Source: Halorussus marinus (GTDB taxonomy: Archaea; Halobacteriota; Halobacteria; Halobacteriales; Haladaptataceae). From it: a DNA stretch of 64,000 bases. The stretch lies in NCBI RefSeq assembly GCF_004765795.1, contig NZ_SBIV01000003.1, positions 310,001-374,000 on the forward strand, in the 5' to 3' direction. The translations under genes and the position numbers were made by a program. Below the pieces are notes generated by a model. The model was not told the origin of the DNA. It saw nothing but the letters and a program-made list of their open reading frames with translations, and did no database searches. Numbering within the stretch: position 1 is the stretch's first letter; the number at the start of each line of letters is the position of its first letter. Below are positions 29,283-33,540 of the stretch, piece by piece.

Positions 29283-30972
<1,690 letters not shown>

Positions 30973-30990
30973 CCGCCAGCGCCGACGCCC

Positions 30991-31792
30991 TCACTCCTCG
31001 GGGTCGCGGGTCGCGAGCAGTCCGGTCGCCATCAGCCGCCGCGTGATGATCACCAGCCCGTTCTTGAACCCCCGACCGAAGATGGCCTTCTCCTCGCGGC
31101 TCTCCTCCTCGAACGAGCTCAGCAGGATCGTGCTCTGGTCGACCAGCAACATCCGACCGATCGCCACTCCGCTCTCGGCGTCGGCGTGGAGCCACTCCAG
31201 CTCCGAACGGAAGATTTCGGCGTCGGGGACGCGCTCGGCCAGTTCCTCCCGCAGTGATTCGGTCACCGTCCCGATGAGGACGTCGACGCCGCGGGCGGCG
31301 GCGTCGGCCAGCGCCTCGACCGTCTCGTCGGTCGCGAGCGACTCCTCGCTGGCGATGAACACGACCTCGTTTTCGGCGTCTTCGAGCAACTGGAGGGTCC
31401 GGCTCGTGATCCCGCCGGTCCCCGACAGCGACCACACCTCGTGGGGTCACCGACTCGTCGCTGATCTCGGCCGGCTCGATCGTCTCCAACGCGTCTTGGA
31501 GTTCGTCGACGCGGGACTGGTACTGGCGACGGAGCGTCTGGGCGGCCTCCTCGAGGCTCACGGCCCGGTACTGGCGCGGGTTCGTGTGCTGTATCTCGAC
31601 GAGTCCCTGCGCTTCTAGGACCCGTATCGCGTCGTAGACTCGGGTCCGGGGCACGTCGGTGATGTCGCTGATCTCTTTTGCCGTCGCCTTCTCCATCCGC
31701 GTCAGGGCGACGAAACACTTCGCTTCGTACTCTTTGAGGCCGAGTTGCTGGAGCAGTCCAGCGGCCTCCGCTTGTCTATCGGTTTCAGCCAT
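30991..31792 (-). pseudogene. TrmB-family regulator interrupted by a +1 frameshift
   Basis: From ATG 31792 the first frame gives a clean TrmB winged helix (LQQLGLKEYEAKCFVALTRM, DVPRTRVYDAIRVLEAQGLV) to residues ...EISDESVT. The protein then continues in another frame as HEVWSLSGTGGITSRTLQLL through to the stop at 30991. One extra base in a run of four Gs (plus strand 31443-31446) explains the break: with three, the product would be a normal 266-aa TrmB protein. It could be a sequencing error, a recent mutation or a slippage site. The C-terminal PLD-like effector half is intact (MLLVDQSTILLSSFEEES). Confidence 0.8.
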
Positions 31793-31837
31793 AGTGTCCC
31801 AACCACCGGGGCTGTCCCGGAGATAGCGGATGTATAC
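31793..31837 (-). promoter_or_regulatory. Promoter and 16-nt leader of the TrmB-like gene
   Basis: GTATAC (31832-31837) is a TATA-like box on the minus strand whose centre is about 26 nt from base 31808. Transcription starting there would give a 16-nt leader, CGGTGGTTGGGACACT, ending at the ATG. The exact complement of this leader recurs at 32020-32035. Confidence 0.45.
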
Positions 31838-31950
31838 TCCCGTGACGTTTAGTCTTGTTCTTCTTTCGGGTTTTCGGCGGCTGGAACGGAGCGGACGGCC
31901 GATATCGGTCGCCCGACTCGTGTGACGGGCGTCGGAACTCGCCGAGAATA

Positions 31951-31967
31951 GATTAACTCAGTTAATC
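31951..31967. promoter_or_regulatory. Perfect 17-bp palindrome GATTAACTCAGTTAATC
   Basis: Eight-base arms GATTAACT and AGTTAATC around a central C. It is a strong operator candidate, lying just upstream of a TATA-like CTACATAGG at 31975-31983 and of the hairpin region at 32006-32069. No protein-coding start follows within about 380 bp on the plus strand. Confidence 0.5.
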
Positions 31968-32004
31968 ACACAAACTACATAGGTTCGCGGGCTGAATCGG
32001 TAAT

Positions 32005-32072
32005 CAGCGCGCGGGTAGCAGTGTCCCAACCACCGCGTACCGCGCGCTACCTGCCACTCCGTGGCAGGTTTC
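32005..32072 (+). ncRNA. Candidate regulatory RNA with two hairpins and an antisense loop
   Basis: Hairpin 1 has a 9-bp stem, AGCGCGCGG (32006-32014) with CCGCGCGCT (32040-32048). Hairpin 2 follows directly: ACCTGCCAC/GTGGCAGGT (32049-32057, 32061-32069) with a 3-nt loop and then TTT. The 25-nt loop of hairpin 1 holds AGTGTCCCAACCACCG (32020-32035), complementary to the predicted leader of the TrmB-like mRNA. A TATA-like element lies about 25 nt upstream and a palindromic operator before that. Transcription is inferred, not shown. Confidence 0.35.
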
Positions 32073-32352
32073 TGCGGAGCGGCCTGAGCCCTGCCTGCGA
32101 CGTCCGAGCGACCGCTACCACCGAGCGACGGCCTACGGGCGCGCCGGTCCGGTGGCGAGGACCCGTACGCCACATCTGTGTGAGTAATCGAGTAACAGTG
32201 CGAACGACGGTGTAGAGCGTGTTACGACGTCGATACAGGACTCGAGAGTCGACGAAGCACGTTTGTGTACGAACGCGGAGTAAAACCACCTATTTGGGTC
32301 AGGGACTCCTCCGCGGACGAACGAGCAGTGATTCACCGCTCGGAGGGCGCAC

Positions 32353-32685
32353 ATGAGTAACGGCTCCGACCGCACAGAACGCGAACTGAAAGCGCTTGCC
32401 AGCCGGGAGCGGCGCGCGGTGCTCGAACACTTCGTCGCGACCGAGACGGCGGTCGCGGACATCGAAGTACTGTGCTGTAAGGTCGCCAGTGCGCGGGCCG
32501 ACGGCGGCGGGGAGTCGCCGTCGACCGATCCTGCCAGAGTCGAACTCCACCACGTCCACCTGCCGACGCTGGCCGACTGCGATCTGGTCGAGTACGACTC
32601 CCGGTCGGGAACGGTGCGATACAAGGCCGACGAGTCGGTCGAGGAACTGCTGGCGGCGCTGGCGACGTTCGAGGCCGAACGGTGA
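32353..32685 (+). CDS. DUF7344-like winged-helix protein
   Basis: 110 aa, soluble. Begins MSNGSDRTERELKALASRER, with a winged helix (RRAVLEHFVATETAVADIEV, HHVHLPTLADCDLVEYDSRS) and a short C-terminal helix. It is the stand-alone form of the domain seen in the membrane-tethered protein at 3001. Probably a DNA-binding regulator; no target visible. A CTATTTGGG TATA-like box lies roughly 60 nt upstream, so there may be a short leader. Confidence 0.75.
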   Translation: MSNGSDRTERELKALASRERRAVLEHFVATETAVADIEVLCCKVASARADGGGESPSTDPARVELHHVHLPTLADCDLVEYDSRSGTVRYKADESVEELLAALATFEAER

Positions 32686-32737
32686 CACGATCGCGGGATA
32701 GAGCCGGCCGTCCGGGTCGGGCGAGCGACCGGCGCGC

Positions 32738-33358
32738 TCAGGAGAAGAACTTCAGCAGGTCGTCGCGCTTGTGCTCGTGGAGCTGGGTCTTCACGGCCTC
32801 GTTCAGCGCGTCGACGTTTCCGCGCTTCGCCGAGATGGGCGCGATCGTGTCCCGCCACTGCTTCCACGGCGGGTGGAGCCCGAGCCGGTCACAGAGCTCG
32901 TTCAGCCGCTCGTCGTCGTCGTCGACCTTGTCCATCTTGTTGACCGCGACGACGACCGGGATCCCGACGTCCCGGAGGAAGTAGAACATCTCGACGTCGT
33001 AAGGCACCTCCTCGCCGCCCGAGTGGCGGTCGATGATGTCGACGGCGCTCTTGGCGTCGACCACGAGCACCCCGACCAGAATCTCGTCGGCGTTGTCCTC
33101 GACGTACCGGACGATGTCGGTCTTGATCTCCTCGCGGCGCTCCTCGGAGACCCCCGACATGAACCCGAACCCCGGGAGGTCGGTGAGCACGAAGTCCTCG
33201 CTGGCCCAGTCGTAGTGGTTCGGCGAGCGGGTCACCCCCGGCTTGCCGCCCGTGTCGAAGCTGTGACCGGTCAGCTCGCGCATCAGTGTCGACTTGCCGA
33301 CGTTCGACCGCCCGACGAAGACCACCTCGGCTCCCCGGTCCGGTCGGCTCTCGAACAT
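32738..33358 (-). CDS. engB: GTP-binding protein EngB
   Basis: 206 aa. G1 [15 protein letters not shown]3 [12 protein letters not shown]4 NKMDKV and G5 [11 protein letters not shown] are all present. EngB/YihA GTPases help assemble the large ribosomal subunit. ATG 33358. A second ribosome-linked GTPase of the NOG1 type lies 4 kb to the right, with two TIGR00341 genes between them. Confidence 0.93.
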
Positions 33359-33540
33359 ACCTTCGCTTCGGGTCGGCGAGGTTTAACGGGCGCGGTTCCC
33401 GCGGAAGGCGTCCCCGATCGGACGGTCCTCGCGGACGCTGAGCCGGCGCCCGCGAACGGACGTTCCGGCCGCGAACGGTCGGCCGAGCCCCGTTCGATCG
33501 CTTTCCGGGCTTATTTATCGACGCCGTGCCACCTGTGGGT

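Follow-up and report, generated by a model that had tools for sequence, protein, structure and literature searches.

A candidate antisense hairpin RNA complementary to the leader of a divergent trmB gene in haloarchaea

Why does the sequence directly preceding the start codon of a TrmB-like regulator gene recur within the loop of a neighbouring hairpin? The question arises in a stretch of 64,000 nucleotides from Halorussus marinus (the window, i.e., the whole stretch of DNA that was analysed), where the 16-mer AGTGTCCCAACCACCG has exactly two plus-strand copies, both exact matches (31793-31808 and 32020-32035). No third copy is found in the 3.76 Mb genome, even when up to two mismatches are allowed. 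The first copy adjoins the start codon of a minus-strand TrmB-like ORF (ATG 31792-31790), the second lies between the arms of a 9-bp stem. An earlier sequence-only reading had reported both copies and had taken the second to be part of an operator-controlled plus-strand small RNA, the loop of which pairs with the leader of the regulator. The two copies were confirmed and the small-RNA reading is supported by comparative genomics, while transcription and repression remain inferred. The features of the locus are collected in Table 1.

Table 1. Positions within the window of the features discussed in the text.
Feature	Position	Strand	Remark
TrmB-A gene (target)	30857-31792	-	winged-helix domain intact 31438-31792
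Antisense target in trmB leader	31793-31808	-	directly 5' of AUG; mRNA 5'-CGGUGGUUGGGACACU-AUG
Conserved target core GGUUGGGACAC	31794-31804	-	part of trmB leader target
Small GC hairpin of trmB leader, CCGGG-ACAGC-CCCGG	31806-31820	-	just upstream of target
Likely trmB TATA-like element CTAAACG	31846-31852	-	inferred; CTAAA(C/G)G conserved in Halorussus
Operator TAACTCAGTTAATCACACAA of small-RNA promoter	31954-31973	+	family consensus TNACYCNNNTAATCACAMAA
TATA box TACATA of small-RNA promoter	31976-31981	+	from positional profile of 113 loci
WW element of small-RNA promoter	31995-31996	+	
Predicted transcription start	32006	+	first stem base; inferred
Hairpin 1 of antisense RNA	32006-32048	+	9-bp stem, 25 nt between arms
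Anti-leader sequence AGUGUCCCAACCACCG	32020-32035	+	perfect complement of trmB leader
Mini-stem within hairpin 1	GUG 32021-32023 / CAC 32031-32033	+	closes apical loop
Apical loop UCCCAAC of hairpin 1	32024-32030	+	
Hairpin 2	32049-32069, feature to 32072	+	9 bp, 3-nt loop, then TTTC
Inverted second operator copy TTACTCGATTACTCACACAG	32176-32195	-	2 mismatches; between RNA and DUF7344 gene
DUF7344 gene	32353-32685	+	Pfam PF24035; variable neighbour downstream of RNA

The target gene and its leader

The protein of the target gene (TrmB-A) matches the winged-helix domain PF01978 of Pfam with E=6e-22, compared to 9e-23 for an intact orthologue. Its reading frame is broken near position 31440 (about 31438-31446), such that the C-terminal half is found in another frame (ORF 30991-31437, with a weak match to PF11495). 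Orthologues in relatives are intact and about 266 aa long. Given that the window genome is a draft of 37 contigs, an assembly error is conceivable, i.e., the break may be either such an error or the mark of a pseudogene.

Upstream of TrmB-A, we observe a motif that resembles a promoter element and is conserved: it reads GTGACAATACCTATC in most families and CTAAA(C/G)G in Halorussus. The small leader hairpin is also present in other families, where it is built from different stems; leader stems of at least 5 bp are found in 100/113 loci compared to 46 +/- 4.6 after shuffling. Motif and 5' hairpin together thus place the leader length at about 30-40 nt, and with CTAAACG as the inferred TATA-like element the window leader probably comprises about 30 nt. 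The hairpin leaves the target single-stranded, and most loci show no sequestration of the target within the leader. In many species, an SD-like GGAGG often precedes the region that would be paired. The proposal of the sequence-only reading that the 16-mer equals the entire leader, transcribed from GTATAC as TATA element, did not hold: GTATAC is not conserved and the leader is longer, with its own 5' hairpin.

The hairpin RNA and its predicted promoter across haloarchaea

A cmscan of positions 30500-33500 gave no Rfam family above gathering score, only two weak chance matches, neither of them at the hairpins. BLASTN of the spacer against plasmids reached, among haloarchaea, only Halorussus. We thus needed a covariance model (R1), which was built on hairpin 1 alone. 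R1 matches in 108/392 haloarchaeal genomes, i.e., about a quarter, from 36/95 genera, among them Haloferax, Haloarcula, Halorubrum, Halobacterium, Natronococcus, Halobellus, and others, each represented by named genomes. A TrmB gene lies within about 1.5 kb of the hairpin in 119/124 loci and is nearly always divergent, with a typical distance of about 285 nt between hairpin and trmB start codon. Beyond the shortness of the repeat, nothing speaks for a chance repeat or a recent local duplication, while the arrangement recurs at more than 100 loci from many families, which all but excludes this explanation. Chance had already been called very unlikely in the sequence-only reading, which is borne out by these loci and by the genome-wide uniqueness of the 16-mer.

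The stem of hairpin 1 varies in sequence between Halorussus species, nine loci of which keep both repeat copies (GTGTCCCAACCACC beside the ATG and GTGTCCCAACCAC in the hairpin). In an alignment of 15 sequences, the stem is 94% paired and 6/10 pairs are doubly changed. Extending the alignment to 105 sequences leaves 95.2% of the cells paired, with double, i.e., compensatory, changes in all ten of the ten pairs. The respective covariation score of 0.382 exceeds both the shuffled (0.197 +/- 0.009) and the slid controls (at most 0.065). A referee may object that the sequences of this alignment, from which identical rows were dropped, were aligned by fitting to the model, and that about a dozen rows are reverse-strand matches to loci that had entered it before. 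Despite these caveats, there is very little doubt that hairpin 1 is a genuine RNA structure. Within it, the apical loop is closed by a mini-stem (GUG/CAC or GG/CC) in 106/110 loci, which explains why ACCAC is fixed in the loop even in the absence of pairing to the leader.

The 67-nt window RNA folds with -40.5 kcal/mol (z = -7.4 against shuffles). Hairpin 2 has stems of at least 8 bp in 66/113 loci, compared to 1-10 in control windows, but at least three T within the next five nucleotides follow in only 15/113 loci. That is, hairpin 2 is very probably real but rarely T-tailed, and its role as a general terminator was rejected given the rarity of T-runs. In the window, where the two successive 9-bp hairpins with T tail described earlier were confirmed, hairpin 2 with its TTTC may form the 3' end of the RNA.

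An alignment of 113 loci on the hairpin shows the element TNACYCNNNTAATCACA (about -52 to -34), followed by a TATA box that is rich in A and T (-27 to -23) and by AA (-9/-8). Together with the haloarchaeal TATA/BRE/WW motifs described in the literature (PMC4983044), this profile predicts the transcription start on the first stem base. Covarying hairpin and the placement of operator, TATA box and WW element make a discrete structured RNA with its own promoter likely, based on computation only and with transcription inferred. The operator TNACYCNNNTAATCACA is directional and locus-specific: about 24/30 of its sites in 20 genomes sit at hairpin promoters. The window genome holds one perfect site, the inverted copy with two mismatches (Table 1), and one distant site, also with two mismatches. 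Such an inverted copy is present in 7/9 Halorussus loci checked; no TATA box is apparent beside that of the window. Since the operator is nearly private to hairpin loci, TrmB-A is the natural candidate for the regulator of the RNA promoter. We consider the TrmB protein of the locus itself the most likely regulator, its binding to the operator being inferred.

The window also contains the perfect 17-bp palindrome GATTAACTcAGTTAATC (31951-31967) and CTACATAGG (31975-31983), the former having been proposed as the operator and a TATA-like sequence upstream of the RNA as its promoter. The TATA box is conserved across loci. The palindrome exists, but its role as operator was rejected: the relatives are not palindromic, the perfect symmetry is incidental, and the operator is the directional element.

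The gene downstream of the hairpins varies. In 48/113 loci (e.g., L078, L079, and L173), a second trmB (TrmB-B, MSSDP...) follows directly, starting about 40-50 nt after hairpin 1 and encoding a protein 35% identical to TrmB-A in one comparison. Elsewhere, DUF7344, HalOD1, or no close gene is found. A HalOD1-domain gene lies downstream of the hairpin in L094, L023, and similar loci of Haloarcula and others.

Where the second trmB begins this shortly after hairpin 2, the hairpins constitute the 5' leader of TrmB-B, and a free small RNA is thus not assured everywhere. This raises a possible leader-to-leader variant, i.e., the RNA may act as the 5' part of the TrmB-B mRNA rather than as a free small RNA. 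The close TrmB paralogue in these 48 loci and the restriction of T-runs after hairpin 2 to 15 loci speak for it. Against it, hairpin, promoter, and TrmB-A pairing persist while the downstream gene changes between TrmB-B, DUF7344, HalOD1, and none close; moreover, in the window TTTC follows hairpin 2 and the next gene starts 280 nt further on.

Complementarity between loop and leader

In more than 100 loci, the loop core is the reverse complement of the nucleotides directly 5' of the trmB start codon, with a gap of 0-1 nt. The complementary stretch covers the last ~11 nt before the ATG and is 11-17 nt long in most loci. Loops and leaders of the same locus share on average a match of 11.1 nt, compared to 9.85 +/- 0.10 nt for swapped partners. 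This difference also manifests in two classes: loop GTGTCCCAACC pairs off with leader GGTTGGGACAC, and loop GGGTCCCAACC with leader GGTTGGGACCC. The T-or-G class of loop and leader is concordant in 103/104 loci, and for L079, the sole exception, the start is misassigned. The class switches amount to just three parsimony changes on the TrmB tree, thus too few independent events for a sign test. A rarer co-change (GGTCCCCACC/GGTGGGGACC) is seen in one clade (L148, L151, L179) and a further one (AGGTCCCAACC) in L144. In Halorubrum cibi, with leader GGGTGGGACAC and loop GUGUUCCACUC, 11 pairs are kept via two G-U pairs.

Flanking positions contribute little. Within one class, the match is 11.08 compared to 10.95 +/- 0.05 for swapped partners; in the other class there is no significant difference. 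Given this weak flank signal, the conserved unit is the core of about 11 nt and not the 16-mer of the window. The true target core likely spans about 11-13 nt, with additional nucleotides being lineage-specific.

At the level of genomes, leader core and hairpin occur together in 74 cases, only one of them in 34 and 19, and neither in 265 (Fisher p ~3e-35, uncorrected for phylogeny). Loss of the hairpins or of the loop-leader match in relatives that keep the gene was looked for, since it would have contradicted the sequence-only reading; both are kept in more than 100 loci. The exceptions are as follows. A few loci show leader mismatches (L157, L170, L173), and in 8-9 of 80 named TrmB-A loci the leader core is kept but no hairpin can be recognised next to it. 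Among 19 named TrmB-A loci without R1 match, about half also lack the plain core, and several have retained the operator next to a hairpin that has diverged or is decaying. Mismatching, apparently decaying loops are found at L197, L240, and L251.

As a separate observation, L197, L240, L251, and L287 retain the operator while their hairpins or leaders are diverged or decaying; they appear to be intermediates of loss. The sequence GGGTGGGACACATG in two further genomes (G380 and G153) was set aside, as it precedes non-TrmB sequence.

A different account of the paired copies is that they are DNA sites, i.e., that a single protein recognises one double-stranded motif present a little downstream of each start site and that the hairpin is incidental. 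In its favour, the DNA sequence is identical at both places, and copies of a DNA site would also co-vary. Against this, each RNA-side copy falls precisely within the loop that a covarying stem encloses, with its own mini-stem (106/110), and the other copy is pinned to the ATG with a gap of at most one nucleotide. Furthermore, Halorubrum cibi loses the DNA identity while RNA pairing is kept, and a separate, clear operator is already present upstream. We consider the DNA-operator account very unlikely. RNA structure, promoter, complementarity, and their conservation are supported by sequence comparison, on computational evidence alone.

Proposed mechanism and relation to known RNAs

In the antisense model, the spacer would encode a plus-strand RNA of about 67 nt in the window species, transcribed from its own operator/TATA promoter. 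Hairpin 1 would present the loop UCCCAAC on the short GUG/CAC mini-stem. The divergent trmB-A mRNA carries GUUGGGA in its leader, with which the loop would nucleate pairing. Pairing may then extend to a duplex of 11-16 bp over the nucleotides just upstream of the AUG, which would most likely block ribosome loading and lower TrmB-A synthesis. With the TrmB of the locus as regulator of the RNA promoter, a feedback loop would be closed. Action in trans is plausible as well, given that Halorussus aquaticus (G004) carries two extra trmB copies on another replicon (L013 and L014; contig C3:31553 and 297345), both with this leader core and neither with its own hairpin.

The sign of the effect is inferred and could in principle be reversed, i.e., pairing might activate trmB-A, for instance by protecting or remodelling the short leader. 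The 5' hairpin of the trmB leader is compatible with this, and archaeal small RNAs can stabilise their targets, a case of which is cited in the CsmR study (PMC13286277). On the other hand, pairing would occupy the 11 nt that immediately precede the AUG, in many species 3' of the SD-like GGAGG, and should hinder initiation there. Furthermore, most leaders leave the target unsequestered. We consider activation unlikely. Our preferred reading, namely that the small antisense RNA represses trmB-A translation by masking the start region, is likely, whereby we infer transcription, repression, and the binding of TrmB to the operator.

A bolder reading, against which we lean slightly, is that of a haloarchaea-wide closed circuit that has spread with plasmids and paralogues. 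Here, a two-domain TrmB would act through a private operator on an antisense hairpin RNA, which in turn shuts off translation of this same TrmB; at about half of the loci the antisense RNA would by now serve a second TrmB gene as its 5' leader, such that the mRNA of one regulator silences the other.

Literature searches for the repeat sequence and for TrmB combined with sRNA returned nothing on the window RNA, and CsmR (PMC13286277) is a different RNA. SHOxi of Haloferax volcanii (254 nt, on pHV3) destabilises malic enzyme mRNA (PMC9426492, PMC12482152). Like the RNA considered here, it is a haloarchaeal intergenic small RNA pairing with an mRNA, and its pairing region is reported to lie in a conserved stem-loop (abstract, RNA Biol 2021). 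It differs by target, i.e., malic enzyme mRNA instead of the trmB leader; identity with SHOxi is neither shown nor excluded. By analogy of the mode of action, the nearest systems are sRNA162 of Methanosarcina and IstR-1/tisB. In Methanosarcina mazei, sRNA162 is likewise an archaeal small RNA masking the ribosome-binding site of a transcription-factor mRNA (PMC3510493), but it uses a single-stranded linker, belongs to an unrelated host group, and lacks the divergent loop-to-leader arrangement. IstR-1/tisB and OhsC/shoB of E. coli are divergent, non-overlapping antisense RNAs that match the neighbouring gene's leader perfectly over a short stretch. Their targets are bacterial toxin mRNAs, in contrast to the archaeal transcription factor and loop-presented match of the window RNA.

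On the protein side, OxsR of Haloferax is a TrmB-family redox regulator with a conserved N-terminal cysteine (C24; PMC9426492), and a similarly placed Cys is found in most TrmB-A proteins. OxsR is, however, a single-domain protein of 14 kDa, whereas TrmB-A has a C-terminal domain and a length of about 266 aa; PMC9426492 describes no small RNA for OxsR.

All in all, the hairpin RNA and trmB very likely form a real and apparently undescribed RNA switch, with expression inferred and the reservation about SHOxi of Haloferax noted above. Few archaeal small RNAs have such deeply conserved support for their target. Here, many genera have retained RNA, promoter, loop, and target site as a set, which provides a family with a covariance model and a single strong target prediction. 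The conserved pairing allows for a simple mutate-and-compensate test in Haloferax or Haloarcula. Most haloarchaeal transcripts are leaderless (72% in Haloferax volcanii; PMC4983044), and the hairpin RNA/trmB pair bears on the role of structured leaders and of translational control in haloarchaea.
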